A stretch of DNA of 64,000 bases. It comes from Haliotis asinina (Eukaryota; Mollusca; Gastropoda; Lepetellida; Haliotidae). The notes beneath the pieces are model-generated. The model was not told the DNA's origin and ran no database searches. It was given only the letters and a program-made list of their open reading frames with translations. Positions 20,752 to 55,818 of this stretch are shown here, piece by piece. Position 1 is the first letter of the stretch. Every line of letters starts with the position of its first letter. The translations under genes and the position numbers were made by a program. The stretch is from NCBI RefSeq assembly GCF_037392515.1, contig NC_090291.1, positions 43,269,001 to 43,333,000 of the forward strand, given 5' to 3'.

Positions 20752-22048
20752 CAGTATGGTTCAAAATTATTGAGAATAGCTAAACCATTTCATATTATTA
20801 AACGAGAACAAATCAGATAAAATTGAATGTATTGTGAAAGTGAACTGACCTTTTCATGTTGTGTAGGTAACAATTTAATATTTTATCAAGTCTCCTTGAG
20901 CTTCACGGCACAGTCTAAGACGGGTAGGCATACTTCCTATCAGAGAGGTTAGTGTCTCGTGAGTTATGCTGTCCCAGTATCGGACCACTTCTTTCTTCAT
21001 GTCTTCAATTTTTGTCAACCCCTTTTGATTCACACATTCCTTCATCATCCCCCAAATGTTCTCAATGGGATTTAAGTCAGGACTATATGCAGGAAATGGT
21101 AATGCAGTCACATTTGTCTCCTGAAACCACTGCTTGGCATGTTTTGCGGTGTGTTTAGGATCATTATCTTGCTGCAAAATCCAGTCATTTCCATAAAACA
21201 CATGTGCACTTGGAAGGAGAAAATTATCTAATATGTTAGTGTAGCGTTGACTTGTCAGATTTCCCTCAAACACACACAGCGGGGTCGTTCTTAATAAGGA
21301 TATCCCTCCCCATACATGAAACTTTGGGCTGTATTTAGGTCGTCGATACAACGGTGCTGACGCAGACTTTGTCCATATTTTCACATTATTGGGATATACC
21401 CATATTGAGCTTTCATCAGTAAAAATCACATTTTCCCAGTCAAAGTTTTCATGTGCCAAACACCACTCAACACGCCTGTCTTTATGTTCTTGTTTCATGA
21501 GAGGAGAAGGAATTCCAGTCTTTTTCTCCCATCCAAGATCAATCAAATTTCTTCTAATTGTAGATTTTGATACAACTGTTGATCCCCTTTCTATCATTTC
21601 ATACCTGATGTTGGAGATGCTTGCCCTTTGCTTTTTAGACGCTAAAATTCCCAGCCGGACGCGATCTGAGAAGTCCAATTTTCTGTGTCTCCCTGCTCCT
21701 TTCTGGTGCCCAAAATCCTTTCCCTCTTTAAAATTCTTCCTAATCCTATACACAGTAGAAAGAGGAGTTCCTGTTCTCTCTGCCAATGTATTTACATCAT
21801 CAATTCCTTAATTACACAACTCAAAAATCAACCTTCTTTTATCTTCAGCAGACATTGTTGACAGTGCTGAGGAAAATGACGTCTGCTACAAATTCAGGGG
21901 AGGTAACTCTAATTGTACTATACTCAGTAGGCCAAGATGAGTTACCTCCCTGATACCATTACTTAGTTTTAAGTATCAGTGAATCAGTTGAGGTGTTAGG
22001 ATAGCTCAAAGTAAGAAGAAAAATTCTCAATAATTATGAACCAGACTA
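20752..22048 (-). mobile_element. Mariner/Tc1-superfamily DNA transposon, 1,297 bp
   Basis: Inverted ends CAGTATGGTTCAAAATTATT (left) and, complemented, TAGTCTGGTTCATAATTATT (right). TA duplications lie at 20750-20751 and 22049-22050. The single gene inside encodes a DD34E transposase. The element sits in a repeat whose other copy at about 22350-22372 keeps the uninterrupted sequence GACTTATATAGTCTCATCCG, which confirms both insertion borders. Confidence 0.92.
20875..21855 (-). pseudogene. Tc1/mariner transposase with one in-frame stop
   Basis: Cuts and pastes the surrounding element at TA sites. The natural ATG is at 21855 (MSAEDKRRLIFELCN). Codon 16 is TAA, after which the frame is open to the stop at 20875, about 325 codons in total. 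N-terminal helix-turn-helix region around TGTPLSTVYRIRKNF; then a second DNA-binding segment (VSKSTIRRNLIDLGW); then the catalytic core: first Asp in FTDESSIWV, second Asp in LQQDNDPKHTAK, Glu in SPDLNPIENIW. Exactly 34 residues separate the second Asp and the Glu (DD34E). All three catalytic residues are present, so the stop is the only obvious lesion and the copy is young. A TTG at 21784-21786 is unlikely to be a real start. Confidence 0.9.
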
Positions 22049-28000: not shown

Positions 28001-31000
28001 AACACAAATAAACATGCTGAAAAGTGCAGGAATACATATCATGGGACATGCTGGTACATCATAGGATGCAATGGCTAAGCAATGTAATGGTAGAATATGT
28101 ACAATATACGTGAAGACATACGTGAATAATAATATTTTTTAAAATGAACTCTATAATCTGTGAGTCCTGGGCGGATACACGTTTTGAGAACGGGTGCGCT
28201 TTCTTGAGCAATGAGGAGGGACTGGAACGCTTCCTTATGAGAATCTAGTGGATAAAAGTAGTGGAGTAGGTAAAGTCTAGGAATCTCTGTCACAGGTTCT
28301 AGAAACGACTGTCTCGCCGTGACACAGATGTTTCTGAAGGGATATTTACAACAACGCTACAATGTGTGTTAGGTCACTGGCTCTTTGGAATGACACATAT
28401 ACCTCTCAGTGCCAAGACCCTTCCCCATATGGGTGGACCTCGGGCATGTATTCACTGCGTCTGTAAAATGAACTCTCGGAGTAACGCGACGCAGATTGAG
28501 TCGACCTGTCGGTGAATATTTTCTACCACTTATGTCTGCAACGTCCCAGCCTGACATGATGTTGTAGCAGGTTACAACCACTAATGGAAGGGACGATAAG
28601 CTTATTACCTTCACCCCGTTGACGTATCATGACGTTGCGACTACTGATGCGGTATTGGGGGATGTTTTGCTGCCGTGGACGGAGTACAATTGTACTTTTT
28701 TCAGGATTTGTTCCATGGCATCTGTGTCATCTGCCACCGCCATTTGATAAAATCAACCGTCAAAATGTAATCTACACATGGACACTGAAATCTACACATT
28801 TTACGAGAACACTACACAAATAAACGTATTAACAAACAGCAATGTGATCACTATGCAAGTTAGAAAACCATAAAATGATGATTACCGGTAATTCTAACCT
28901 TAATTTTAAATTTAACTCTGCTTATTTCCTAACGAGCAACATATGTTGCCTAACATCCAGGTGCAGTTCAAAACAGGAGTTGTAGCTCACCTTTATCAAT
29001 ACGTAGTAATCCCATATTTTCAAATCTCTAGGTGTCTGAAGACTGCCTGTATTTGAACATCTGGGCACCCCTCGGCACCAACTCCACCTCCTCCCTCGCC
29101 GTCATGGTCTACATTCACGGCGGCAACTTCGTCCACATGAGTGGTGGCAGTTTGTTGTACGATGGCAGTATTCTCAGTCAGAAGGGTGACGTCATTGTGG
29201 TCAACGTTGACTACAGACTAGGTGATGCATTAATTCGTAAGGAGAGAGAGAGGCTTTATGTCACCATTATGTTGTATTTCAGTTGCATCACGTTGCGGGA
29301 CAAGGATGGTGGCGTCCGGGTGTGTATGAACTAGATTGTAGTGAACTATCTGACCACGTGTAAGGTTTGTTTGTTTGTTTGTTTGTTTGTTTGTTCTTTT
29401 GCTGTTGTTTAACGCTGCACTCAGCGATATTCCTGTTATATGACGGCGGTATGTAAACAATCGCCCCCAAACTACCCCAATGATCAATATCATGAGCATC
29501 CATAATGCAGCTGGGACACGATGACATGTGTCAACCAAGTCAGCGAGCTTGACAACCCGATCCCAGTATGGTTGCTGAGGATCAATTCTAACCGGATGCT
29601 TCACGGATGACATGAGTAGGATTTGTCTGGAATGCATTTCTCCCGAAGAACACGACAATTGTTGTTCTGAAACTGTATGATTGCAGGCGCTCTTGGGTTC
29701 CTGGTAACTGGCACTGGGGATGTGGACGCTGTTGGCAACTATGGTATCCTGGACCAGAGGCATGCCCTGAAGTGGGTCAACGAGAACATCAAGGCGTTTG
29801 GAGGGGACCCCGGAAGAGTGAGTTACGACGCCAGATACACTTGTATGTCATCTGTATGCCTGTCGCAACTTTATTGGAAAGGTTTTGATGAAGCACCACG
29901 AACACTTTCATTTAAGAAGCAGCTCGTACGGTCTGACAGTACGGTCACATCCCAGTATTATAAAGCAGAAGTTATCACAATCGGTCCTCTTCGTTCAAAT
30001 GATGGTCGTCCTAAACGAACTGGTCGTTTGGTTCGGTAACGGTTGTTGTCGTATCAACGTTCCTCCCATAGAATGTTGTGCCAGATATTAATCACGAGTT
30101 TGCCTGTTCTAATCTCGATTACATATACCGCTAGATTACACCTAAGAATTCCCTACTGCTAAACATTGATCTAAGAAATTGGAAGTAACGCCTACCAGAG
30201 AGGGAACGAGAGCTTGGGAATGTATTTTCTAGTTGTGCGAGCTCGAACATATTGGTAGGGAGCATTCCAAATGACACTTTCGGCCTTTACGAACATTTGA
30301 AAGCAAATTTCCAAGAGAAACGCTGCTATGCGTCCTAAGCCATCTATAGACATTCGAGCTGTTCAGTGTTCAAATTTTGGTCGATATTTCTCAAAGTATA
30401 CGTTGGAATGGAACTAGAGTGGGTTCCTGATTAACGTCTTCTCTATTATGTCATGTGTCGAACAAAGATCGCTTTAGTTCATTCTAACATAACCAGACGA
30501 TTTCCCACATCTTGTTCCACAGGTAACCTTGTTCGGCCAGAGTGCTGGAGCTCAGTCAAGCATGATTCATCTGGCCTCGGAAGAAAGCAGCGCCTTATTC
30601 CACAACGCTATCATTGAGAGTTCCCCCTTCTCCATCCCGTACAAAACCTACGCCGAGGCAATACTGCTTGGAGCTCATTTAGCCAGTCTCCTGAACTGTA
30701 CAGCCAGGGACATTAACTGCCTCAGACAGAAGACCTCAGTGGATATAGTTCAGGCACAGTTCATCAGCAGAAGTAAGCTCTCGTCTCTGAAATATCTCGA
30801 GGATTTTGAGCCCTGGGGACCCTGGGTGGATGGGATCACCGTCAAGGCAGAACCAATCACAGCCATGGACAAAGGGTTCTTTCAGAAGAAACCTGTTATG
30901 ATTGGTACGACTTCAGAAGAGACCCGGATGTACATCTACCAAGCCTGGGATAAACCTATAGACACTGTTGTCTACACTGCCGCTATCCTCGCTTCACATC

Positions 31001-31530
31001 CGAACCATGTAGTGGAAATAATGTACGAATACCCGCCAGACGAACCTCAGGATCAGAGGAACAACCTGGCAGTTCTTGCTACTGATTTCATCTTCGGTTG
31101 TGCCACCCGTCACGTGACAAGGGAGATGTTGGACTATGGTGTTAGTGACGTCTGGCTCTACATATACGACCACGCGTTCTCCTTCCCTGGTTGGGGGAAT
31201 ATGACCTTCTGCCAAGGTCACGTCTGCCACGGGTCGGAAGTTCCGTTCGTGTTCCAGTCAGCCGGTCGGGGAGGGTTCAAGTACACTCCCGACGAATTGG
31301 CTCTCAGTGACCTCATCATCAGTTACTGGTCGAACTTTGCCAAGACAGGTGACCCGGTGGGAATGCCCGCCTCCGGGGTCAAGGTCGTCCCAGATTGGCC
31401 TCGTTATCACGCAGAGATCCAAGCGCAGCAGTGGCCCTATCAACACTTTAAGACACCCAAGTCTTACGTGGATCCCAACTATAACGCTCCTTACTGTGAC
31501 TTCTGGGATAAAGTTGGCTATGATAACTGA
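25056..31530 (+). CDS. Esterase A: secreted type-B carboxylesterase/cholinesterase-family enzyme
   Basis: Alpha/beta-hydrolase that cleaves carboxylic esters; secretion is inferred from the N-terminal signal peptide ([17 protein letters not shown]). Five coding exons join in frame: 25056-25213, 26176-26296, 29032-29221, 29687-29817, 30523-31530, giving 535 aa, the usual family length. Family marks in order: [28 protein letters not shown], oxyanion loop YIHGGNF (about 120-126), [26 protein letters not shown], nucleophile elbow FGQSAGAQ (Ser207), acid in TSEETRMY (Glu332 or 333), base in VCHGSEVPF (His436). The triad is complete, so it should be active. The elbow has Gln where vertebrate cholinesterases have Glu (GESAG), as in some invertebrate and crystal-protein-like members. 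AATAAA follows the stop at 31547. Its 3' end was copied at 36702-37018. Substrate unknown; paralogue of the minus-strand gene at 46346-55818. Confidence 0.94.
25331..25463. repeat. (CCAGCA)n hexanucleotide microsatellite
   Basis: About 130 bp of nearly perfect CCAGCA units, with two CCAGCC variants at the start, about 120 bp after the esterase A exon 1 donor. The poly-HQ and poly-GA frames through it are artefacts of the repeat. Confidence 0.95.
25917..25998 (+). repeat. SINE-A 3' fragment
   Basis: CATGGGGAAGCTCATTTTTG, CTCCCGCCGTGATATTGC, TGGAGTATTGTCAAAAGCG and CCACTCACTCA: the body and tail of SINE-A without its tRNA-like head. It lies in esterase A intron 1. Confidence 0.55.
26313..26631. 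repeat. Simple repeats in esterase A intron 2
   Basis: A GAGC/GCGT tetranucleotide-like run (26313-26369), then non-repetitive DNA, then an 18-base run of G (26614-26631). The rest of the intron to 29031 holds one SINE-B and otherwise nothing I recognise. Confidence 0.85.
27562..27745 (-). repeat. SINE-B copy
   Basis: AAAGCCGCACTCACCAATAT, GTAAGTAATCAAGTGCGG, ACCAGACAAACGAGTGATTA, ATGACCTGTGTCTACCAAG and GAGTCTGACCACCCGATAC. Diverged; in esterase A intron 2. Confidence 0.65.
29366..29568 (-). repeat. SINE-B copy with a (GTTT)n run at its 3' end
   Basis: The (GTTT)n microsatellite at 29366-29396 is the complement of an AAAC-rich 3' tail. Then come AACGCTGCACTCAGCGATAT, TATATGACGGCGGTATGTAA, GACATGTGTCAACCAAGTCA and GCGAGCTTGACAACCCGATC. 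The SINE lies in the short intron between esterase A exons 3 and 4. Confidence 0.75.
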
Positions 31531-31546
31531 GGAATTATTTTGAGTA

Positions 31547-31552
31547 AATAAA
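31547..31552 (+). other. Likely polyadenylation signal of esterase A
   Basis: AATAAA 17 bases after the stop codon (GAGTAAATAAACACG), which would give a very short 3' UTR. The same hexamer is carried by the duplicated fragment at 37035-37040. Confidence 0.55.
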
Positions 31553-32754
31553 CACGAAATACATTATCGAACCCTCCTTTATTTCAAATACATGTTTAAC
31601 CTGTTAGTTATACAACCATGGTGTATGGTAAACCGTTAGGTCCATAGTTTATGACCCGTAGAAATGAATGCATTCGAAAACACAAGTCCTTTTAAAATTA
31701 AAATGTGAAATAATTGCTCTTGTTAGTGAACAACAATGAAACCGATCTTTTGGGATATGAACAGAATGATGACCATTATTGACGAATGTAAGCACATATA
31801 TAAGACAAAATTTTAATTTGTTTATTTTGTAAATTCAAGAATACATACTTTATTGAAGACCAGGTACACATACTGTTTGCCTGTGGAACCTGTGATATTC
31901 TTAGAAAGAAATTTATGTGCCCGTTCTTATCTTATGATAAATCTGATTATGTGCCGCAAGATATGGTGAATTTACTCAGATCACTTCCTGGCATAGCATA
32001 TCTTTGTGTTTATATGAAGTCTGGAAATTGCGAGCCAAGACTAAATTATTCCATCAACACTAGGCCCTGCAGCTATTACAGGTGCACAGTAATGTCTCCA
32101 CGATGCAAAGCATATCATCACTCTATGGCTGTATTTATATTAAGTCTGGAGCTGAGGGTCAACACTAAGCTATAAGCAATTAGCCCTGTAGTTATTACTG
32201 ACACATAGTAATGTCTCTATCACTTAATACCAAAAATTAATGAAAGTACTTTTTGTATATATACTCCCCATTAAACGTTTAGCCTCACTTAAATCACTCA
32301 CTATATGTTATGTGTGTATGCGTTTTTATATGTACATATAAAAAAAATAATTCCTCCACAGGCGCAAACATTATACAAAGGCTTGTGTAGCGTAAAGTAT
32401 TGTTAAGAATTTTCCAGTTTCCACTGATTTTCAACATTTACTGACCTCATACAGTAATCTTTTCAACGTTACGAATTTTGCAATACTTCAGTTCATGTTA
32501 CTTCAGTTCATGTGTAGACAGTAACTTCAAACAGAATGGATTTGTTTTGCAAAATCTAGTTTAGAGCCCTTACCTCAAGTGCGTGGCTGCATTTACCCTA
32601 TTGAAACAAAATAGTAGTTGCATAGTGTATAGTTAGGTACAAAGATATTTGCTTTTTACACCTTTACCATACTTTCACAAACCCCAGTCATGAAATAGGT
32701 ATACATTCCATCTTTGAAACTGCAATGATTATAGCTCAATGCACAATATATTCT
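31553..32754. other. Stretch downstream of esterase A, nothing recognised
   Basis: AT-rich, no convincing gene. Its duplicate is 37041-38242. An open frame at 31915-32175 is not intact in the duplicate, because one of the few differences creates a stop, so it is not treated as a gene. Confidence 0.5.
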
Positions 32755-34130
32755 CTGGGTTATTCACATGAATAGATTATGAAAGGATGGCCAGAAGGTG
32801 AAGAACTCACTGTTGTTGCATGTAGAATATGTATTGTATTTTGTGATTTCATATTACCCCTTATTACATGGTTAAAATATGGAACTTGTTGTTTTGTTTT
32901 GTGTGTATATATTACCTGCTTCACTACAAGACATATTGCATTTAAAGGGTTACTATTTTTTCCTTTAACCCCGAATAGAATATGTTTTGGTGTAAAATTA
33001 ATTTTGCCGACAGCTCCAGTCTTAAGCCAGCTGGTCCGGTTCTCCCAAATCTTATTAACATGACAACAATCATAAAAGAGATGGATAATTGTTTCTAGTT
33101 CTTTCGAACAAAATGTACACATAGGTGTGTCCTTTAGTCTAATTCTGTTTCAGAAAATGTTTGTAGGTACAATATCATATAGTATCCTCATTTCAAAGTA
33201 CTGCATTTTGCACATCGATTTGGCAACATGTATATGTTTCGTAACATTGTGTTATCACATTGTGTTTCAAAGACCCTTTCCCACTTTTTATGTGCATATG
33301 ATTTATTATAGTTAGAACCTAATTTTCAAATATAAAACATTTTGGTGCTTTAACCTTCAAATTTAGTTTGGATACATTGAAAGGTAGTATTGGAGAAAAT
33401 GGTATTGTTATGGGAAGGGAAATATGTCCTTTTTTTAAACAGGCAGTTATGGGAGATTTGATATTATAATATCTTAAGATACTTCTTCTGACTCGATATC
33501 TCTTCATGAGTGTAAATTTCTCCTGTAGTGGGGTTCATTAGATCATAGATAAAGTGTATTCCTGAACTGTACCATTTTTTGTATTGTGTCACGTTGCCTA
33601 CTTTAAACATGTAATTAAACCAAATACTTTGACTTAATGTATTCCTTGAATCCAGAGTCTTGTATTGCTGTTGTAAATATAATCCCCATGTGGAGATGAC
33701 ATCTCGCCAAAAGGGATTTCTTATGTACGGTTTTATGTGTTTTTCCATACATTCTGGGTCTGCTAACCAAAGTCTCTTGTGGGTAATTATACAAATTTCA
33801 GCTAGTGCTTTCCATTTACAGGTACTAGAGTATAGTCTCTTTATCCGTGATATTTTACAAGCATAAATAATGTTCTTAATAAGTGGAACACTAATTCCTC
33901 CGTACTCAGGTGGCAGATCGATTACATCCGTTCTAATTTTATCAGGTTTGTATTTCCATACAAATATGAAACATGTTTGTGGGAATGTATTTATCGTTTC
34001 ATCTGGGGGTGGTGGAATTAAAGAAAATAAATGATTTAATTTTGCTGGTAATAGTGATTTCAAAATAACATTTCTACCAATTGGTGTAAGTGTTCTTGTT
34101 CACCATAACTTCATTTCATTCTCTATCTTT
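32755..34130 (-). mobile_element. LINE fragment, L1/Tx1-like, C-terminal region
   Basis: Minus strand. It starts near 34130 with WTRTLTPIGRNVILKSLLP, then NHLFSLIPPPPDETIN, FIFVWKYKPDKI, GGISVPLIKNIIYACKISRI and KRLYSS. This is the segment after the reverse-transcriptase domain in L1-like elements. A second piece (33122 downwards) begins MCTFCSKELETIIHLFYDC, the CX2C...H...C knuckle. Between them shifted frames read KSYAHKKWERVF and similar, so the copy has several stops and frame breaks and is 5'-truncated. It is the insertion target of the palindromic element in the duplicated copy. Confidence 0.8.
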
Positions 34131-35507
34131 TATAAATTTATTTTCATAAGTCAGTTTCACCATTTCATCAGTATAGTGTATATTGTATCTTGTATTATAT
34201 TTACATATCTGCATGCCTGCGCCTGCTCAGCTCCTACATGACCACCTAGGATTTTTTGTCACAAAGAAAGCATGCATTGTGGCCTCAAGGACTCTTTGTT
34301 GACCAAACCCTGTCTGCCAATAATTAAAATGCATCATTATCGCTATTGTTTGTGAACAACAATGGAACAGATCTCTTGAAATAAGTACAGAACAATAATC
34401 ATAATTGTCTGATTTCATCACATATAAAGGCAAAAACGATTGAATGTTTATATTGTTAGTTTTCAACAACTACACACAATAGTGATACCAATTAGAATGT
34501 TGGTTGTTTTTATGGCACAAATAAACTTGATGAACAAATTGATGAACCAGCACAGTGAAAAAATTAACCAATCTGGATGACTAACGCTTACACCGCTGCA
34601 TGGCTCGCAGAAATACGTGCATTTTCCCGTTTGTTGTTGTTTCTATTTGAAGTTGTAAACGTACCTGAGAACGTTTTTTTCAGGTTGTTTATTTTCATCA
34701 TCCCATGTGATCCTAATATACATGTAGAACAACATACATATATCTGGATACAACAAAAACACAATGTGCCATAACAGTGCATTGCATTGGATCAATTCAT
34801 TCTGTTCCGCGCGCTGACTATCGTTCCCCTTGAGTGTTTGTATTGTATAAACAGCACAGTGAAAAAAATTATATATATATATACACGTTGCTCTGTATGT
34901 ATAATTAAAACATGGATCATACGAATTGTTTAACTAGAACCTTTCTGTATTGAGGAGGATAGTCAAGCTTCATAAAAAATAAATTATCAATATGGGGGTT
35001 ACAATAAAAAATAATCGAGAGTGTTTGAAGTTATTACCTAAACTGTTTCACGACACAGGGGTGTACTTTGAAGTGCCGTTGTGGACACGTGTGTTTCGCT
35101 TGACTGAATAGCTCACCAACGTTCCGTTATATACATCCCTTTGACTTTGTACTCCCTTTGAGTTTTCTCTAGTATGATAGATAGAGCCAAGAGGGTTCAT
35201 AAAGTCAGAGTAAAGTCATGCAGAAGCAAAGAAGGGATTACTCAGAGTGTGCCGTGCGACCAGTGGCGATTACTCGAGGAAACATTGTTACGAAACTTGC
35301 TATGATTCGGTCGCCAGTAAGTCTATATCAGAATCAAACGTTCTGATGAAACAAATGAAAGCATTTTTGGTTTTACTTGAAAGATATGTGCAATATTTGG
35401 TTTTATTTGAGAATCAAATAATCTGAAGTGAAATATTAGTCCGTTATTCAGTTAAGATCACCCGACAACGTTTTTGTAAGAAATATGTGAAGCCCAATAT
35501 TGCTGTC

Positions 35508-35675
35508 CGCGCTCACTCACCAGGAGGTGGTAGGACAGCCCAACGGCTCATCACGACGATGATTCGGGTTCGATTTCTCACACGGGAAGAATGTGTGAAG
35601 CCCATTTTAGAGATCCCCCGCCGTGACTATGCTGGAATGCTCATATTGCGGCATAAAGCCATACTCACTCGCTCG
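35508..35675 (+). repeat. SINE-A copy (unit 1)
   Basis: GGTGGTAGGACAGCCCAACG, TTCGGGTTCGATTTCTCAC (B-box), AGAATGTGTGAAGCCCATT, CCCCCGCCGTGACTATGC and a tail GGCATAAAGCCATACTCACT. Its duplicate is at 45604-45771. Confidence 0.7.
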
Positions 35676-36249
35676 CAGAATATAGCTTTAACTTACATGG
35701 GAAGTATTAGCCAATCCGTATATGAAAAGGGATATATTTGTTTTTATCAGGACAACCAAGCAAGTCAATAGTATAAAACAGTAGGTCAGTGGACAACAGA
35801 CGCTGTGGTGTTGATTCTGTTGAAATTGTATTTCATAACACGTGTAGTCTGCGAGCAATATGGAAGTGCGATGTTTCTGGTGGGTCACATCAAAGGCAGG
35901 AGTTGAAAATGTGCTATACATATGGCAATTAAAACGACTTCAGCTACTTGGACGTAACAGGGTCAGAAATTGCGACGCGTCGCATTCTATGACAGAAATA
36001 CTATACAGGCATAGGTACAGTTATCGCATCAACTGAATGTATGTTGTTTGTTTTTTTTCCTCTCGTTTGTATATGGAAAAAATGCTGGTAAACTTCAACT
36101 GACCTCAACCTGAGTACCCAATTTTAGTTACCAAGTCACGGATGTACAAGAAAACAACTAATTTTACAAGGATAATGACAGCAAATAAGTTTTATAACTC
36201 GACTGTATTATGTATAATCGAGTGTATGTTTAGTCAACATCTGTACATG

Positions 36250-36700
36250 TTAGTTATTGTATCCAACTTTATCCCAGAAGTCACAGAAAGGTGCGTTGTA
36301 GAATGTATCAGTGAAGGAGGATGGAGTCTTGAAGTGCTGATACGGCCACTGATTTTCTGTGTGAAACAGAGGCCACTCTGGAACGGCCTTGACCTTGACC
36401 CCAGAGTCAGACACTCCTTGGGGATTGCCAGTTTTTGCGAAGTTTGACCAATAACTGATAACTAAATCACTGAGAACAATTTCATCAGGAGTGTACTTAA
36501 ACCCTCCCTGGCCTGCCGACTGGAACACAAATGGAACTTCCGAGCCATGGCACACGTGACCTTGACAGAAGGTCAGATTACCCCAGCCGGGAAAGGAAAA
36601 CGCATGGTCGTAAATATACATCCACACATCAGCAATGCCGTATTTCACAATTTCTCGAGCGATGTGACGTGTGGGACATCCAAAAACGTAATCTGTTGCA
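36250..36700 (-). pseudogene. Truncated 3' copy of esterase B
   Basis: Minus-strand copy of the last 150 codons of the esterase B final exon (compare 46346-46796), including the catalytic-His motif VCHGSEVPF and the stop. Homology ends abruptly at 36700, in mid-exon, with no splice site. It lacks the nucleophile elbow and all upstream exons, so it cannot make an enzyme. Confidence 0.93.
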
Positions 36701-36701
36701 G

Positions 36702-37018
36702 AAGGTCACGTCTGCCACGGGTCGGAAGTTCCGTTCGTGTTCCAGTCAGCCGGTCGGGGAGGGTTCAAGTACACTCCCGACGAATTGGCTCTCAGTGACC
36801 TCATCATCAGTTACTGGTCGAACTTTGCCAAGACAGGTGACCCGGTGGGAATGCCCGCCTCCGGGGTCAAGGTCGTCCCAGATTGGCCTCGTTATCACGC
36901 AGAGATCCAAGCGCAGCAGCGGCCCTATCAACACTTTAAGACACCCAAGTCTTACGTGGATCCCAACTATAACGCTCCTTACTGTGACTTCTGGGATAAA
37001 GTTGGCTATGATAACTGA
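36702..37018 (+). pseudogene. Truncated 3' copy of esterase A
   Basis: Plus-strand copy of 31214-31530, the last 105 codons of esterase A with the stop and the AATAAA behind it. One base differs (cagcagcgg for cagcagtgg, Trp to Arg). It abuts the esterase B fragment in divergent orientation, with one unexplained G at 36701 between them. No promoter or start is attached. Confidence 0.93.
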
Positions 37019-38242
37019 GGAATTATTTTGAGTAAATAAACACGAAATACATTATCGAACCCTCCTTTATTTCAAATACATGTTTAACCTGTTAGTTATA
37101 CAACCATGGTGTATGGTAAACCGTTAGGTCCATAGTTTATGACCCGTAGAAATGAATGCATTCGAAAACACAAGTCCTTTTAAAATTAAAATGTGAAATA
37201 ATTGCTCTTGTTAGTGAACAACAATGAAACCGATCTTTTGGGATATGAACAGAATGATGACCATTATTGACGAATGTAAGCACATATATAAGACAAAATT
37301 TTAATTTGTTTATTTTGTAAATTCAAGAATACATACTTTATTGAAGACCAGGTACACATACTGTTTGCCTGTGGAACCTGTGATATTCTTAGAAAGAAAT
37401 TTATGTGCCCGTTCTTATCTTATGATAAATCTGATTATGTGCCGCAAGATATGGTGAATTTACTCAGATCACTTCCTGGCATAGCATATCTTTGTGTTTA
37501 TATGAAGTCTGGAAATTGCGAGCCAAGACTAAATTAATCCATCAACACTAGGCCCTGCAGCTATTACAGGTGCACAGTAATGTCTCCACGATGCAAAGCA
37601 TATCATCACTCTATGGCTGTATTTATATTAAGTCTGGAGCTGAGGGTCAACACTAAGCTATAAGCAATTAGCCCTGTAGTTATTACTGACACATAGTAAT
37701 GTCTCTATCACTTAATACCAAAAATTAATGAAAGTACTTTTTGTATATATACTCCCCATTAAACGTTTAGCCTCACTTAAATCACTCACTATATGTTATG
37801 TGTGTATGTGTTTTTATATGTACATATAAAAAAAATAATTCCTCCACAGGCGCAAACATTATACAAAGGCTTGTGTAGCGTAAAGTATTGTTAAGAATTT
37901 TCCAGTTTCCACTGATTTTCAACATTTACTGACCTCATACAGTAATCTTTTCAACGTTACGAATTTTGCAATACTTCAGTTCATGTTACTTCAGTTCATG
38001 TGTAGACAGTAACTTCAAACAGAATGGATTTGTTTTGCAAAATCTAGTTTAGAGCCCTTACCTCAAGTGCGTGGCTGCATTTACCCTATTGAAACAAAAT
38101 AGTAGTTGCATAGTGTATAGTTAGGTACAAAGATATTTGCTTTTTACACCTTTACCATACTTTCACAAACCCCAGTCATGAAATAGATATACATTCCATC
38201 TTTGAAACTGCAATGATTATAGCTCAATGCACAATATATTCT

Positions 38243-39192
38243 CTGGGTTATTCACATGAATAGATTATGAAAGGATGACCAGAAGGTGAAGAACTCACTG
38301 TTGTTGCATGTAGAATATGTATTGTATTTTGTGATTTCATATTACCCCTTATTACATGGTTAAAATATGGAACTTGTTGTTTTGTTTTGTGTGTATATAT
38401 TACCTGCTTCACTACAAGACATATTGCATTTAAAGGGTTACTATTTTTTCCTTTAACCCCGAATAGAATATGTTTTGGTGTAAAATTAATTTTGCCGACA
38501 GCTCCAGTCTTAAGCCAGCTGGTCCGGTTCTCCCAAATCTTATTAACATGACAACAATCATAAAAGAGATGGATAATTGTTTCTAGTTCTTTCGAACAAA
38601 ATGTACACATAGGTGTGTCCTTTAGTCTAATTCTGTTTCAGAAAATGTTTGTAGGTACAATATCATATAGTATCCTCATTTCAAAGTACTGCATTTTGCA
38701 CATCGATTTGGCAACATGTATATGTTTTGTAACATTGTGTTATCACATTGTGTTTCAAAGACCCTTTCCCACTTTTTATGTGCATATGATTTATTATAGT
38801 TAGAACCTAATTTTCAAATATAAAACATTTTGGTGCTTTAACCTTCAAATTTAGTTTGGATACATTGAAAGGTAGTATTGGAGAAAATGGTATTGTTATG
38901 GGAAGGGAAATATGTCCTTTTTTTAAACAGGCAGTTATGGGAGATTTGATATTATAATATCTTAAGATACTTCTTCTGACTCGATATCTCTTCATGAGTG
39001 TAAATTTCTCCTGTAGTGGGGTTCATTAGATCATAGATAAAGTGTATTCCTGAACTGTACCATTTTTTGTATTGTGTCACGTTGCCTACTTTAAACATGT
39101 AATTAAACCAAATACTTTGACTTAATGTATTCCTTGAATCCAGAGTCTTGTATTGCTGTTGTAAATATAATCCCCATGTGGAGATGACATCT
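38243..39192 (-). mobile_element. LINE fragment, duplicate copy, 3' part
   Basis: Copy of 32755-33704, containing the CX2C...H...C knuckle piece and the segment before it. It is cut at CATCT (39188-39192), where the palindromic element begins. The rest of the copy resumes at 43796. Confidence 0.85.
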
Positions 39193-39386
39193 AGTAGTAT
39201 ACACAATGGGGAGAAAAACCGGTAGCGGGTACACTTTGCTCAGAAGCTTCTGAGTATAGCTAATTCTGCTACCAGCATATATATTCAACAAGACCCTTCG
39301 ATAAGACCACTTTTCGGCTGCTCCCAATTACTCCCAATTATAGTGTATTCCCAATTAGAGCTATGCGGGTACATAGACATAGAAAT

Positions 39387-40550
39387 ATGCCAGGAACCAA
39401 GCTCTCGCGAGAAGCATATACCGAGATCCGATCGGGTCGTTTGTCCATTCGGGAAGCGAAGAGGAAGTATCACATATCGCAAGCTCGATACACACGAATC
39501 CGAGGTGGTATAGACAAGCCCACAACTCCCGATATATCCGAAGACTTGGAGGCCCTGCTGCAGAAGTGTCGCCCCATGTTGCTTTCCGACCGAGAGAAAC
39601 AAATCCTGGAGCAATCGGGACACACCTTCTACGAACACTACCAGATCCCCAAACAGTTTCTCGAACTCTACTTGCTGTGCTTTCGTCCACTAGTAGAAGC
39701 CGGCAAAATAGTTGATTTCGTCTACATCTACCCACCCAACCAATTTCGACCCTCGGCGGGTAAACTCCGAATCATTCTCGCTGATAACTGCTATCCGGGC
39801 CCCAAGGACAGACACAACCGATGCACCGACTGCCTAGCCACTCTATCGGAACTGCCTGCTCTCTTCGGACCCGACAACTCTACGTGCAAGTGTGGTGCCA
39901 CCGACCACTGCGTCGACAGCAAGAAATGCATTCTCTGGGAACAGAAAGCGATAGACTACACACCCCAGGAGCGACTTCCACTCGAGGTTCCAGAAGAGAT
40001 CGAGGTTGGCAGCTGTTGTGTGAATATAGAGAACCTATACGACGACGCCTGCCTTTTCTGGAGCATACAATACGCACTCCTCATCAACAAATTGATGGAC
40101 TGTTGTACGTGTAAGGAGAAAGAGTCTTGTATCTGCTGGTGGTTATCGGAGAAAGCAGAGGTACCACAGGGGCGGGGTAATATTTGGCATACCCCATTAC
40201 CCGACTATGGTGGACCCAAGCATATGGAAGTAGCACCCCCTCCATGCAGCGAACACAAAAAAGCTGCGAACGTCCCAGAAGGAGTCTACTTATGCAAAAA
40301 GTTTGCTGTAGCGGGACACGAAGGGAAGAACCGGCTGTTATTACTACTCGATCCCCCGACTGGGGAAACGATTCCAGTCTATGGCTACAAGATACGAGAA
40401 ACGATTCGGGCTGCCGGGGGAATAGAACGCCTACGGTTAGTGCGGGAACCGTTTCTATGCAAGCTCGGTAAAATCTGCTACTCACCTATATCAGAAAAGA
40501 AAGACGATAGAGAAATCGAATTACTGCTTCCAGACATTGGACGAGAATAG
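39387..40550 (+). CDS. Palindromic-element protein 1 (left arm), Cys-rich with N-terminal HTH
   Basis: Not recognised. The frame opens at an ATG at 39363, but I prefer the ATG at 39387. It starts MPGTKLSREAYTEIRSGR, which aligns with the start of protein 2 (MPPRRDLSSEKVQEIRSLR), and gives 387 aa. Residues about 6-40 look like a helix-turn-helix (SIREAKRKYHISQARYTRI). A hydrophobic stretch FLELYLLCF and VDFVYIYPP follow. The middle is rich in paired cysteines (RCTDC, CKCGATDHCVDSKKC, CCTCKEKESCICW), which could bind zinc. The C-terminal third has NRLLLLLDPPTGETIPVYGY. I see no DDE, HUH, tyrosine-recombinase or polymerase motif. It could bind the element's own DNA (inference). It is convergent with protein 2, with 137 bp between the stops. 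Confidence 0.75.
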   Translation: MPGTKLSREAYTEIRSGRLSIREAKRKYHISQARYTRIRGGIDKPTTPDISEDLEALLQKCRPMLLSDREKQILEQSGHTFYEHYQIPKQFLELYLLCFRPLVEAGKIVDFVYIYPPNQFRPSAGKLRIILADNCYPGPKDRHNRCTDCLATLSELPALFGPDNSTCKCGATDHCVDSKKCILWEQKAIDYTPQERLPLEVPEEIEVGSCCVNIENLYDDACLFWSIQYALLINKLMDCCTCKEKESCICWWLSEKAEVPQGRGNIWHTPLPDYGGPKHMEVAPPPCSEHKKAANVPEGVYLCKKFAVAGHEGKNRLLLLLDPPTGETIPVYGYKIRETIRAAGGIERLRLVREPFLCKLGKICYSPISEKKDDREIELLLPDIGRE

Positions 40551-40687
40551 GTCCGGCAGCTCGCCTAGTATTTTGGTAGATGCAGTCGTGGGCTTACAAA
40601 GGACGAATACTTATCTAGGCTAGTTTTTCGTATTCCAACTGCTTTTCGTGGTACCCTACTACTTTTTTCCCCTCAAAAAACAACACT

Positions 40688-41353
40688 CTACTGCATAATG
40701 AAGGGATCCCCACGTTTCGTCTTGGGTGTTTCTACCTTCTCGGTCGGTGTGTGCACTGATTTGCTGTGCTTCCAGGTCTTGTAGACGACCTTCCAGAGAA
40801 AAACAGCGGCTAGCGAAAGGTAGGTCCACCTTTGGGCTGTTTCTAGTATCTGCCGCACCTTCTGAATATCCAGATGGGTCTCTTCTTGTTCCTCCTCAAC
40901 GTTTTCTATTTCCTCTTCCTCATTGTCCTTATCCAGCATCGACAAGATGTCGACCAACAAATTCGTGGTTTGCTCCATATGAGCCGGCAACGTATTCGTG
41001 GTTTGTTCCAAACGAGCCGACATCGCTGCAGTTTGCTTCACACTAGCCTCTAGCCTCCCCAAGCGGTTGTAGAAGTCCTGGATGGTGGACACAGTCGGCT
41101 CTGCAGCAGGCAATACGCTCTCGCTAGGGGGTAAGATGGCCGCAGGCAATACGCTGCCGGCAGACGTCTCACTAGCGGGAGCAGGCAATGCGTCTGTGCT
41201 GGTCGGAGGTTCTACAGCAGGCTCTCGCCATATGTCGTAGAGTCTTGTGGATCCAATACCGAAGCGCTTTTTGACCTCGCTTGCTGGGAGCACCCCTCGA
41301 AGGGAGCGTATTTCTTGGACCTTTTCCGAAGACAAATCTCTTCTTGGTGGCAT
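40688..41353 (-). CDS. Palindromic-element protein 2 (left arm), HTH, coiled coil and membrane segment
   Basis: 221 aa, not recognised. Residues about 6-44 form a helix-turn-helix like that of protein 1 (LPASEVKKRFGIGSTRLYDI). Residues 45-88 are an Ala/Pro/Ser linker with repeated SVLPAA. Residues about 88-140 are a predicted amphipathic coil with two EQTTN repeats. Residues 141-160 are acidic (EEEEIENVEEEQEE). Residues about 177-190 are a short hydrophobic helix (WTYLSLAAVFLWKVV), followed by a basic tail. This layout suggests a DNA-binding protein that oligomerises and may tether to a membrane (inference). Its promoter is probably the TATATA run at 41371-41387. It diverges from its twin in the right arm. 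Confidence 0.75.
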   Translation of the reverse strand: MPPRRDLSSEKVQEIRSLRGVLPASEVKKRFGIGSTRLYDIWREPAVEPPTSTDALPAPASETSAGSVLPAAILPPSESVLPAAEPTVSTIQDFYNRLGRLEASVKQTAAMSARLEQTTNTLPAHMEQTTNLLVDILSMLDKDNEEEEIENVEEEQEETHLDIQKVRQILETAQRWTYLSLAAVFLWKVVYKTWKHSKSVHTPTEKVETPKTKRGDPFIMQ

Positions 41354-41370
41354 GGGGTGTTTTTCCTGGG

Positions 41371-41617
41371 AATATATATATATATACCATACTTCCTACT
41401 TGTCTATATAGGAACCAATCCTCTCCCAGGAAACTTCTAATAATGCTTAGCAATGCTTAGCAATGCTTAGTAATGCTTAGCAAATGCTTAATAATACTAA
41501 GCATTTGCTAAGCATTACTAAGCATTGCTAAGCATTGCTAAGCATTATTAGAAGTTTCCTGGGAGAGGATTGGTTCCTATATAGACAAGTAGGAAGTATG
41601 GTATATATATATATATT
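41371..41617. promoter_or_regulatory. Central symmetric region: hairpin, iterons and mirrored TATA runs
   Basis: The core 41440-41548 is a perfect 51-bp-arm hairpin with a 7-nt loop. Its arms are built of tandem AATGCTTAGC units (about five per arm, 10-11 bp each). On either side, at 41371-41387 and its mirror 41601-41617, are ATATATATATA runs 20-30 bp upstream of the two divergent protein 2 starts. The region therefore looks like a bidirectional promoter, and iterons at a palindrome also suit a replication origin or resolved hairpin terminus (inference). Confidence 0.6.
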
Positions 41618-41634
41618 CCCAGGAAAAACACCCC

Positions 41635-42300
41635 ATGCCACCAAGAAGAGATTTGTCTTCGGAAAAGGTCCAAGAAATACGCTCCCTTCGAGGGGTGCTC
41701 CCAGCAAGCGAGGTCAAAAAGCGCTTCGGTATTGGATCCACAAGACTCTACGACATATGGCGAGAGCCTGCTGTAGAACCTCCGACCAGCACAGACGCAT
41801 TGCCTGCTCCCGCTAGTGAGACGTCTGCCGGCAGCGTATTGCCTGCGGCCATCTTACCCCCTAGCGAGAGCGTATTGCCTGCTGCAGAGCCGACTGTGTC
41901 CACCATCCAGGACTTCTACAACCGCTTGGGGAGGCTAGAGGCTAGTGTGAAGCAAACTGCAGCGATGTCGGCTCGTTTGGAACAAACCACGAATACGTTG
42001 CCGGCTCATATGGAGCAAACCACGAATTTGTTGGTCGACATCTTGTCGATGCTGGATAAGGACAATGAGGAAGAGGAAATAGAAAACGTTGAGGAGGAAC
42101 AAGAAGAGACCCATCTGGATATTCAGAAGGTGCGGCAGATACTAGAAACAGCCCAAAGGTGGACCTACCTTTCGCTAGCCGCTGTTTTTCTCTGGAAGGT
42201 CGTCTACAAGACCTGGAAGCACAGCAAATCAGTGCACACACCGACCGAGAAGGTAGAAACACCCAAGACGAAACGTGGGGATCCCTTCATTATGCAGTAG
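41635..42300 (+). CDS. Palindromic-element protein 2 (right arm), twin of the left-arm gene
   Basis: 221 aa, identical in translation to the product of 40688-41353. Begins MPPRRDLSSEKV about 90 bp from the edge of the central hairpin and reads away from the centre. Same domain order: HTH, Ala/Pro/Ser linker, coil, acidic run, short hydrophobic helix, basic tail. The absence of any difference between the twins means that the element is young, or that the arms are homogenised by replication or gene conversion. Confidence 0.75.
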   Translation: MPPRRDLSSEKVQEIRSLRGVLPASEVKKRFGIGSTRLYDIWREPAVEPPTSTDALPAPASETSAGSVLPAAILPPSESVLPAAEPTVSTIQDFYNRLGRLEASVKQTAAMSARLEQTTNTLPAHMEQTTNLLVDILSMLDKDNEEEEIENVEEEQEETHLDIQKVRQILETAQRWTYLSLAAVFLWKVVYKTWKHSKSVHTPTEKVETPKTKRGDPFIMQ

Positions 42301-42437
42301 AGTGTTGTTTTTTGAGGGGAAAAAAGTAGTAGGGTACCACGAAAAGCAGTTGGAATACGAAAAACTAGCCTAGATAAGTATTCGTCCTTTGTAAGCCCAC
42401 GACTGCATCTACCAAAATACTAGGCGAGCTGCCGGAC

Positions 42438-43601
42438 CTATTCTCGTCCAATGTCTGGAAGCAGTAATTCGATTTCTCTATCGTCTTTCTTTTCTGATAT
42501 AGGTGAGTAGCAGATTTTACCGAGCTTGCATAGAAACGGTTCCCGCACTAACCGTAGGCGTTCTATTCCCCCGGCAGCCCGAATCGTTTCTCGTATCTTG
42601 TAGCCATAGACTGGAATCGTTTCCCCAGTCGGGGGATCGAGTAGTAATAACAGCCGGTTCTTCCCTTCGTGTCCCGCTACAGCAAACTTTTTGCATAAGT
42701 AGACTCCTTCTGGGACGTTCGCAGCTTTTTTGTGTTCGCTGCATGGAGGGGGTGCTACTTCCATATGCTTGGGTCCACCATAGTCGGGTAATGGGGTATG
42801 CCAAATATTACCCCGCCCCTGTGGTACCTCTGCTTTCTCCGATAACCACCAGCAGATACAAGACTCTTTCTCCTTACACGTACAACAGTCCATCAATTTG
42901 TTGATGAGGAGTGCGTATTGTATGCTCCAGAAAAGGCAGGCGTCGTCGTATAGGTTCTCTATATTCACACAACAGCTGCCAACCTCGATCTCTTCTGGAA
43001 CCTCGAGTGGAAGTCGCTCCTGGGGTGTGTAGTCTATCGCTTTCTGTTCCCAGAGAATGCATTTCTTGCTGTCGACGCAGTGGTCGGTGGCACCACACTT
43101 GCACGTAGAGTTGTCGGGTCCGAAGAGAGCAGGCAGTTCCGATAGAGTGGCTAGGCAGTCGGTGCATCGGTTGTGTCTGTCCTTGGGGCCCGGATAGCAG
43201 TTATCAGCGAGAATGATTCGGAGTTTACCCGCCGAGGGTCGAAATTGGTTGGGTGGGTAGATGTAGACGAAATCAACTATTTTGCCGGCTTCTACTAGTG
43301 GACGAAAGCACAGCAAGTAGAGTTCGAGAAACTGTTTGGGGATCTGGTAGTGTTCGTAGAAGGTGTGTCCCGATTGCTCCAGGATTTGTTTCTCTCGGTC
43401 GGAAAGCAACATGGGGCGACACTTCTGCAGCAGGGCCTCCAAGTCTTCGGATATATCGGGAGTTGTGGGCTTGTCTATACCACCTCGGATTCGTGTGTAT
43501 CGAGCTTGCGATATGTGATACTTCCTCTTCGCTTCCCGAATGGACAAACGACCCGATCGGATCTCGGTATATGCTTCTCGCGAGAGCTTGGTTCCTGGCA
43601 T
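42438..43601 (-). CDS. Palindromic-element protein 1 (right arm), twin of the left-arm gene
   Basis: 387 aa from the preferred ATG at 43601 (upstream in-frame ATG at 43625), identical in translation to the product of 39387-40550. The start lies about 190 bp inside the right end of the element and reads inward, converging on the right-arm protein 2. The subterminal DNA between the end and the start holds a CAGAAGCTTCTG palindrome and repeated CCCAATTA motifs, possible protein-binding sites. Confidence 0.75.
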   Translation of the reverse strand: MPGTKLSREAYTEIRSGRLSIREAKRKYHISQARYTRIRGGIDKPTTPDISEDLEALLQKCRPMLLSDREKQILEQSGHTFYEHYQIPKQFLELYLLCFRPLVEAGKIVDFVYIYPPNQFRPSAGKLRIILADNCYPGPKDRHNRCTDCLATLSELPALFGPDNSTCKCGATDHCVDSKKCILWEQKAIDYTPQERLPLEVPEEIEVGSCCVNIENLYDDACLFWSIQYALLINKLMDCCTCKEKESCICWWLSEKAEVPQGRGNIWHTPLPDYGGPKHMEVAPPPCSEHKKAANVPEGVYLCKKFAVAGHEGKNRLLLLLDPPTGETIPVYGYKIRETIRAAGGIERLRLVREPFLCKLGKICYSPISEKKDDREIELLLPDIGRE

Positions 43602-43795
43602 ATTTCTATGTCTATGTACCCGCATAGCTCTAATTGGGAATACACTATAATTGGGAGTAATTGGGAGCAGCCGAAAAGTGGTCTTATCGAAGGGTCTTGT
43701 TGAATATATATGCTGGTAGCAGAATTAGCTATACTCAGAAGCTTCTGAGCAAAGTGTACCCGCTACCGGTTTTTCTCCCCATTGTGTATACTACT

Positions 43796-44226
43796 CATCT
43801 CGCCAAAAGGGATTTCTTATGTACGGTTTTATGTGTTTTTCCATACATTCTGGGTCTGCTAACCAAAGTCTCTTGTGGGTAATTATACAAATTTCAGCTA
43901 GTGCTTTCCATTTACAGGTACTAGAGTATAGTCTCTTTATCCGTGATATTTTACAAGCATAAATAATGTTCTTAATAAGTGGAACACTAATTCCTCCGTA
44001 CTCAGGTGGCAGATCGATTACATCCGTTCTAATTTTATCAGGTTTGTATTTCCATACAAATATGAAACATGTTTGTGGGAATGTATTTATCGTTTCATCT
44101 GGGGGTGGTGGAATTAAAGAAAATAAATGATTTAATTTTGCTGGTAATAGTGATTTCAAAATAACATTTCTACCAATTGGTGTAAGTGTTCTTGTTCACC
44201 ATAACTTCATTTCATTCTCTATCTTT
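43796..44226 (-). mobile_element. LINE fragment, duplicate copy, 5' part
   Basis: Resumes at the second CATCT (43796-43800) and copies 33700-34130, including NHLFSLIPPPPDETIN and GGISVPLIKNIIYACK. Together with 38243-39192 it equals the uninterrupted fragment in unit 1. Confidence 0.85.
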
Positions 44227-45603
44227 TATAAATTTATTTTCATAAGTCAGTTTCACCATTTCATCAGTATAGTGTATATTGTATCTTGTATTATATTTAC
44301 ATATCTGCATGCCTGCGCCTGCTCAGCTCCTACATGACCACCTAGGATTTTTTGTCACAAAGAAAGCATGCATTGTGGCCTCAAGGACTCTTTGTTGACC
44401 AAACCCTGTCTGCCAATAATTAAAATGCATCATTATCGCTATTGTTTGTGAACAACAATGGAACAGATCTCTTGAAATAAGTACAGAACAATAATCATAA
44501 TTGTCTGATTTCATCACATATAAAGGCAAAAACGATTGAATGTTTATATTGTTAGTTTTCAACAACTACACACAATAGTGATACCAATTAGAATGTTGGT
44601 TGTTTTTATGGCACAAATAAACTTGATGAACAAATTGATGAACCAGCACAGTGAAAAAATTAACCAATCTGGATGACTAACGCTTACACCGCTGCATGGC
44701 TCGCAGAAATACGTGCATTTTCCCGTTTGTTGTTGTTTCTATTTGAAGTTGTAAACGTACCTGAGAACGTTTTTTTCAGGTTGTTTATTTTCATCATCCC
44801 ATGTGATCCTAATATACATGTAGAACAACATACATATATCTGGATACAACAAAAACACAATGTGCCATAACAGTGCATTGCATTGGATCAATTCATTCTG
44901 TTCCGCGCGCTGACTATCGTTCCCCTTGAGTGTTTGTATTGTATAAACAGCACAGTGAAAAAAATTATATATATATATACACGTTGCTCTGTATGTATAA
45001 TTAAAACATGGATCATACGAATTGTTTAACTAGAACCTTTCTGTATTGAGGAGGATAGTCAAGCTTCATAAAAAATAAATTATCAATATGGGGGTTACAA
45101 TAAAAAATAATCGAGAGTGTTTGAAGTTATTACCTAAACTGTTTCACGACACAGGGGTGTACTTTGAAGTGCCGTTGTGGACACGTGTGTTTCGCTTGAC
45201 TGAATAGCTCACCAACGTTCCGTTATATACATCCCTTTGACTTTGTACTCCCTTTGAGTTTTCTCTAGTATGATAGATAGAGCCAAGAGGGTTCATAAAG
45301 TCAGAGTAAAGTCATGCAGAAGCAAAGAAGGGATTACTCAGAGTGTGCCGTGCGACCAGTGGCGATTACTCGAGGAAACATTGTTACGAAACTTGCTATG
45401 ATTCGGTCGCCAGTAAGTCTATATCAGAATCAAACGTTCTGATGAAACAAATGAAAGCATTTTTGGTTTTACTTGAAAGATATGTGCAATATTTGGTTTT
45501 ATTTGAGAATCAAATAATCTGAAGTGAAATATTAGTCCGTTATTCAGTTAAGATCACCCGACAACGTTTTTGTAAGAAATATGTGAAGCCCAATATTGCT
45601 GTC

Positions 45604-45771
45604 CGCGCTCACTCACCAGGAGGTGGTAGGACAGCCCAACGGCTCATCACGACGATGATTCGGGTTCGATTTCTCACACGGGAAGAATGTGTGAAGCCCA
45701 TTTTAGAGATCCCCCGCCGTGACTATGCTGGAATGCTCATATTGCGGCATAAAGCCATACTCACTCGCTCG
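45604..45771 (+). repeat. SINE-A copy (unit 2)
   Basis: Duplicate of 35508-35675, same orientation and sequence. It was copied as part of the segmental duplication, not by a separate insertion. Confidence 0.75.
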
Positions 45772-46345
45772 CAGAATATAGCTTTAACTTACATGGGAAG
45801 TATTAGCCAATCCGTATATGAAAAGGGATATATTTGTTTTTATCAGGACAACCAAGCAAGTCAATAGTATAAAACAGTAGGTCAGTGGACAACAGACGCT
45901 GTGGTGTTGATTCTGTTGAAATTGTATTTCATAACACGTGTAGTCTGCGAGCAATATGGAAGTGCGATGTTTCTGGTGGGTCACATCAAAGGCAGGAGTT
46001 GAAAATGTGCTATACATATGGCAATTAAAACGACTTCAGCTACTTGGACGTAACAGGGTCAGAAATTGCGACGCGTCGCATTCTATGACAGAAATACTAT
46101 ACAGGCATAGGTACAGTTATCGCATCAACTGAATGTATGTTGTTTGTTTTTTTTCCTCTCGTTTGTATATGGAAAAAATGCTGGTAAACTTCAACTGACC
46201 TCAACCTGAGTACCCAATTTTAGTTACCAAGTCACGGATGTACAAGAAAGCAACTAATTTTACAAGGATAATGACAGCAAATAAGTTTTATAACTCGACT
46301 GTATTATGTATAATCGAGTGTATGTTTAGTCAACATCTGTACATG

Positions 46346-55818
<9,473 letters not shown>

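Follow-up and report, generated by a model that had tools for sequence, protein, structure and literature searches.

How does a DNA element that carries all of its genes twice, in two mirror-image arms, come to be palindromic over its whole length and remain so as it spreads? The question is raised by a 4603-bp insertion at positions 39193–43795 of a 64,000-nucleotide stretch of the Haliotis asinina genome (C12:43269001-43333000; hereafter, the window), which consists of two 2298-bp inverted arms around a 7-nt centre. Comparison of the window with the rest of the 1.14 Gb genome leads us to an account that we hold to be probable, if well short of certain: the element is a gene-bearing palindromic satellite of Maverick/Polinton elements, copied through a hairpin stage. 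The parts of the element and of its insertion site are as follows, in window positions.

39193–41490, + strand: left arm, 2298 bp, identical to the reverse complement of 41498–43795
41491–41497, no strand: asymmetric centre, 7 nt, the tip of the putative hairpin
41498–43795, − strand: right arm, 2298 bp
39188–39192, no strand: target-site duplication CATCT, left
43796–43800, no strand: target-site duplication CATCT, right
39193–39208, + strand: terminal motif AGTAGTATACACAATG, "CAC" end type, identical at both element ends, with the (AGT)2 end described for Mavericks in PMC8097293
43780–43795, − strand: terminal motif, right end
39363–40550, + strand: P1, 395 amino acids, with an N-terminal helix-turn-helix, a Cys/His-rich middle, and a beta-rich C-terminal part
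42438–43625, − strand: P1, second copy
40688–41353, − strand: P2, 221 amino acids, with an N-terminal helix-turn-helix, long helices, and a hydrophobic stretch towards the C-terminus (by eye)
41635–42300, + strand: P2, second copy
41434–41554, no strand: central cluster of GCTTAGCAAT-type repeat units, folding as one hairpin with a 7-nt loop
33700–33704, no strand: unoccupied target site within the sister copy
31214–36700, no strand: element-free sister copy of the duplicated locus
36702–46796, no strand: element-bearing copy of the duplicated locus

Alignment of the element with its own reverse complement revealed mismatches at only three positions, 41491, 41494, and 41497, all within the centre. 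The convergent P1 and P2 frames are the only ones of at least 200 amino acids in each arm. The repeat CATCT flanks the element on both sides, and the uninterrupted site, GACATCTCGCC, is preserved in the sister copy. These observations bear out a sequence-only reading of the stretch, which had described a perfect palindrome with the same two convergent genes in each arm, a CATCT duplication, and an unoccupied site. The locus itself (31214–46796) is a ~5.5-kb tandem duplication of >99.7% identity with the element in one copy only; the sister copy differs from 36702–39192 plus 43796–46796 at 6 positions on one side of the insertion and 1 on the other. The two units could alternatively be two haplotypes set in tandem by the assembler, in which case the CATCT insertion would be polymorphic.

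A search of the genome with one arm returned at least 79 matches (the best 34 of 398 candidates scored), mostly in head-to-head pairs, and a search with P1 returned at least 108 (the best 105 of 718 candidates scored). Among the P1 matches listed, 83 are full-length frames at 97–100% identity, all free of stops; a further 17 are distant, at 50–65%, of which 16 have stops and 1 is open (C1:30299223); and the remaining 8 are partial pieces of young copies. Combined by hand, the arm and P1 listings give at least 44 young loci: 41 palindromes, among them some that lack part of one arm, a single arm (C4:76281086), a locus with a nested Maverick (C4:24289193), and a multimer (C4:29291818). Both ends were read at 43 of the 44 (26, a further 16, and the nested locus), and all 43 have AGTAGT...ACTACT tips. 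The target duplication is exactly 5 bp at 40 of these 43, 6 bp at two (L037 and L046), and absent at one (L009/L072). The flanks of L041 and L042 are identical, indicating a single insertion within a larger duplication and thus 42 independent insertions. Within an element the two ends are identical over 24 nt (23/23 and 16/16). Across 22 elements the tips fall into three types, GGG (14), CAC (7, including the window copy), and TAC (1), with at least six changes of type on a weakly resolved tree.

Among the loci that depart from the common form, the multimer (L044+L045, C4:29291818-29300712) has four arms in the order + − − −, the last of which repeat at a 2279-bp period, with a tip joined to centre-like repeats. 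The lone arm of L025 ends at the hairpin tip and is followed by DNA unlike the other arm.

Perfect palindromes are a known type of artefact, in which a fold-back read is joined to itself during sequencing or assembly. We consider such an origin a negligible prospect: the palindrome occurs at dozens of loci whose flanks differ, almost every one of them has exact target duplications, and the elements have symmetric mutations specific to each. Chance or artefact is in general a very unlikely source of the window structure, because the structure recurs at dozens of loci, and almost every locus has its own target duplication. The element is young, multi-copy, and mobile, and its palindromy is a trait of the family. 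The mobility proposed from the single locus is therefore upheld, and the check suggested with it, of copy number, arm symmetry, and 5-bp flanks, gave the same picture within the animal's own genome.

Had the palindrome arisen a single time and afterwards moved as a duplex without exchange between arms, divergence within an element should be about that between elements. The observation was otherwise. We compared the arms over ~1840 bp in 23 elements, namely the 26 elements read at their ends less the short L008, L033, and L042. The comparison did not include the remaining 18 of 44 loci: in five (L006, L009, L025, L032, and L043) an arm was incomplete or interrupted, and 13 were read at the ends only. 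For the multimer, the outermost two arms were used. The two arms of an element showed no difference in 14 cases, one in 7, and two in 1, and L034, which carries a deletion, showed 5 substitutions and 2 indels. Between an element and its closest neighbour there are 5–19 differences, with medians of 17–28 and a full between-element range of 5–36. In the 22 elements without L034, 132 of the 141 variable columns are symmetric in every element, and 60 substitutions occur in one element alone, 53 of them in both of its arms and 7 in a single arm. A tree built without the tips placed the two arms as sisters or as identical in 22 of 22 elements. Since the differences within elements are tiny relative to those between them, the arms are re-copied from one template: one arm is repeatedly re-made from the other as the element spreads. 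This points to a hairpin or snapback DNA stage.

The same symmetry might instead arise after insertion, through gene conversion that keeps the arms identical as in chromosomal palindromes, with transposition proceeding without a hairpin. Long perfect palindromes can swap sequence between their arms, and arm data alone cannot date the re-copying. However, deletions confined to one arm persist in L008, L032, L033, L034, and L042, and an older element that is ~70% identical to the family over ~1.2 kb (C13:538500-545000) has not had its arm differences erased. We therefore regard this explanation as distinctly unlikely. In 1354 aligned bp, 14 substitutions and 5 indels separate the inverted outer arms of the older element, which lie around a scrambled middle with further degenerate arm pieces. 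The ends of this element read AGTTGTATAGGG.../...CTATAGGACT, and its flanks, CGCCC and CGCTC, are one letter apart. As its arms have diverged, arms seem to drift apart after insertion, and the inverted form is probably older than the present burst, both on the evidence of this one old copy.

The centre of the palindrome is informative in another way. Of 26 elements, 17 share an asymmetric 13-nt tip, whose orientation in 11 of them is opposite to that in the other 6. Retention of asymmetric letters is what would be expected if the unpaired loop of a hairpin escapes correction. The window centre folds at −65.9 kcal/mol, compared with a mean of −19.8 (sd 2.4) for 200 shuffles. We also considered the two tip orientations as a flip-flop replication signal and found them uninformative, the element being otherwise symmetric and able to insert either way.

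The ends of the element connect it to Mavericks. According to PMC8097293, the commonest vertebrate Maverick tip is (AGT)2//(ACT)2, accompanied by 6-bp duplications. At one locus in H. asinina (C4:24289193-24307912), the arms lie ~18.7 kb apart end to end with Maverick genes between them. This arrangement and the Maverick-type tips are what would be expected if the arms were long terminal repeats of a larger Maverick-like family whose interior was lost; the sequence-only reading had offered a pair of long terminal repeats with a lost interior. In fact, the interior is a unit of its own, nested in a palindromic copy: a Maverick of 14,461 bp (C4:24291414-24305874) with perfect 319-bp repeats and a 5-bp duplication, ACCCC. 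Its host palindrome, a copy that had lost its central repeats, has a separate duplication, AATCT, and received the insertion near its centre. We thus rejected the arms as Maverick terminal repeats on the grounds of the nesting, the 319-bp repeats, and the ACCCC duplication, the Maverick having only 16 nt in common with the arm. Searches (tblastn) of P1 and P2 against three Maverick pieces gave weak, short matches only (best E 0.023). Among the matches listed, the other 43 young loci are without arms around a long interior, the far side of L025 being read for 1.5 kb only, and none of the 44 is a longer element with these arms as the terminal repeats of a known family. A lost interior is, in our view, highly improbable.

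The nested Maverick shares with its host palindrome, which is of the GGG type, exactly the 16 terminal nt AGTAGTATAGGGAATG. Six further Mavericks read at one tip all have AGTAGTATAGG(G/A)AATGA(C/T)AGTCCG, and five of the six have the full 16-mer. IMG/VR held three exact matches to the 16-nt CAC tip, none continuing into arm sequence. The nested copy encodes two proteins that exceed their Pfam cut-offs, an rve integrase (PF00665, E 7e-11) and an A32-like packaging ATPase (PF04665, E 8e-9). Its 1164-amino-acid protein matched Pfam Endonuclease_7 (above cut-off) and Rho_N; it matched no polymerase family in Pfam, and a search of PDB sequences was empty, but from its polymerase-B motifs we take it to be the polymerase. 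A capsid-sized protein is presumably the capsid, the capsid model reaching 0.0095, below its cut-off. The integrase has at least 150 genome matches at 97–100% identity, 149 of them without a stop (the 150 best of 3292 candidates scored), and this number of near-identical genes probably reflects a recent, large Maverick expansion in the genome. In nearly all of the other matches, residues 1–231 lie inside a 326-amino-acid frame, compared with 245 amino acids in the nested copy; the longer frame elsewhere indicates that the end of the nested copy's integrase is atypical.

P1 and P2 stand outside known families, as had been claimed from the sequence: neither reached a curated cut-off in Pfam or NCBIfam, and neither found a convincing match in PHROGs, PADLOC, or PDB sequences. 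Weak matches (Glyco_hydro_26, 0.052; Bap31, 0.023; ChrB_N, 0.0059, and DUF1664, 0.0061, in relatives of P2) were set aside as coiled-coil or chance similarity by appearance, as were a PHROG scaffold protein (0.0072), SbcC (0.0048), and syntaxin (0.038). Predicted structures had a mean pLDDT (predicted local distance difference test) of 50 for P1, a low confidence, and 65 for P2. Fold searches with the poor P1 model returned nothing at E ≤ 0.001, the best match being an unnamed viral protein over 95 columns at 0.0012. The N-terminal helix-turn-helix is common to both proteins (hhalign E 2e-5, probability 77). In the left arms of 22 elements, changes in P1 comprise 24 synonymous and 30 non-synonymous, against a neutral expectation of 23% synonymous (p = 0.0004). 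P1 at least is thus under selection while the element spreads, unlike what is seen in an ordinary deletion derivative.

Relatives of P1 number five by sequence search and seven by profile, four of the latter new (the best 7988 candidates scored), and P2 has eight matches. One relative is recorded as belonging to a symbiont of the bivalve Ctena orbiculata and is probably host DNA. In another P1 relative, P0001 (511 amino acids), the C-terminal beta-rich part of P1 is seemingly repeated (by eye). IMG/VR contained no relatives of either protein, and GTDB contigs contained none of P2.

The properties of P1 invite the alternative of a self-sufficient element. P1, with its helix-turn-helix and Cys/His cluster and perhaps together with P2, would then be a recombinase or replication initiator of a new kind, and the tips would owe their likeness to convergence or borrowing. 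In favour of this, P1 shows conservation and selection and belongs to no known family, and relatives exist elsewhere, including the one filed under the Ctena symbiont. On the other hand, the tips and the 5-bp stagger already fit the abundant Maverick integrase, and the P1 model is without a recognisable enzyme fold, at a confidence too low to exclude one. Self-sufficiency therefore seems to us unlikely.

In the satellite account that we prefer, the Maverick-type tips (AGTAGT...) would let the Maverick integrase insert the element in trans with a 5-bp stagger, and the element would contribute two DNA-binding-type proteins, P1 and P2, which may bind the tips or the central repeats. During hairpin (snapback) copying the arms would be complementary parts of one strand and would be made identical again, whereas the loop at the hairpin tip would be unpaired and would keep its asymmetric letters. 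Copying could be primed at the tips by the Maverick polymerase, also acting in trans; the shared tips suggest such a role for the integrase and, perhaps, for the polymerase. The arm data are broadly in keeping with the idea, from the sequence-only reading, of a head-to-head dimer of a linear replicon, but no extrachromosomal or hairpin DNA was seen.

Several points weigh against this account. Sequence sharing between palindromes and Mavericks is limited to 9–16 terminal nt, and the window copy, of the CAC type, shares only 9 with the nested Maverick. The CAC (7/22) and TAC (1/22) tips have no Maverick partner among those found, a genome-wide search for the CAC tip not having been completed. 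The palindromes mostly make 5-bp duplications, compared with the 6 bp given for vertebrate Mavericks in PMC8097293; for the resident Maverick the 5-bp length comes from a single copy, and an exact 5-bp duplication is missing at 3 of 43 palindromic loci. The unintegrated hairpin form is deduced from arm co-evolution and the retained asymmetry of the tip, and chromosomal gene conversion could partly account for the identity of the arms. In the multimer, differences between inner and outer arms amount to 2 and 7 columns. The common tip is missing in 9 of 26 elements, whose centres are different, and in L029+L030 the symmetry is complete. Finally, selection on P2 is not significant (7 synonymous versus 13 non-synonymous changes in 133 aligned codons, p = 0.11), and P1 could be an unrecognised recombinase or replication protein.

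The element can be compared with several known systems. Like Mavericks/Polintons, it has (AGT)2...(ACT)2 tips and makes a short fixed duplication on insertion, and the 16-nt tip is common to GGG-type copies and the resident Maverick family. It is unlike them in being palindromic throughout, in its 5-bp rather than the vertebrate 6-bp duplication, and in that no polymerase, integrase, ATPase, or capsid gene was found in it (Pfam; frames of at least 200 amino acids). Foldback elements (FB, Galileo, Tetris, and Tm1) resemble it in that very long inverted repeats account for most of their length, but the present element has genes in each arm, Maverick tips, and a spacer of near-zero length. Galileo and Tm1 make target duplications of lengths other than 5 bp. 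The transposases with which they are associated are P-type for Galileo and Mutator-type for Tm1; the palindromic element gave no match to a transposase family in Pfam. Miniature inverted-repeat transposable elements, which are short and non-coding and derive by deletion from an autonomous element, differ from it as well, given its 4.6 kb, its open frames, a P1 under selection, and at most 16 nt in common with the Maverick.

Among viruses, self-complementary genomes of adeno-associated virus (AAV) and parvovirus duplex dimers are ~4.6-kb palindromic dimers that fold into a 2.3-kb hairpin duplex and depend on a helper virus. The element is likewise a ~4.6-kb palindromic dimer able to fold into a 2.3-kb hairpin duplex, with a proposed dependence on a helper. 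In contrast to these viruses, no Rep helicase/nuclease or capsid homologue was detected in it by Pfam, it integrates with a target duplication, and it is known from sequence alone. Adenovirus-like protein-primed linear viruses produce palindromic defective genomes in which an end fragment is doubled head to head and can be replicated from either end; unlike such transient by-products, the element is a lasting lineage with its own genes. In the open-access literature, with most subscription journals outside its reach, no gene-bearing whole-element palindrome was found, and the accessible papers included none on a non-autonomous Maverick/Polinton.

Elsewhere in the window, two inverted genes that are carboxylesterase-like by eye and 73% alike in their DNA (30529–31530 and 46346–47356) each overlap one edge of the duplicated locus. 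A frame of 303 amino acids at 20875–21786 resembles, by eye, a Tc1/mariner transposase.

Mavericks are regarded as virus-like elements whose replication is hard to study in a live host, in part according to PMC8097293. A young partner that shares their tips and is present in dozens of copies in the same genome provides natural substrates for examining the requirements of the Maverick integrase and polymerase. Symmetric mutations also offer an easy and general way to test the life cycle of any palindromic element for a hairpin stage. A further-reaching possibility, which we put forward tentatively and regard as rather doubtful, is that the element is a satellite replicon with a self-complementary hairpin genome that borrows the replication, integration, and perhaps the particles of Mavericks, its P1/P2 helix-turn-helix pair finding Maverick replication sites or its own hairpin. 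If true, this would add a layer of AAV- or virophage-like parasitism to a virus-like transposon.

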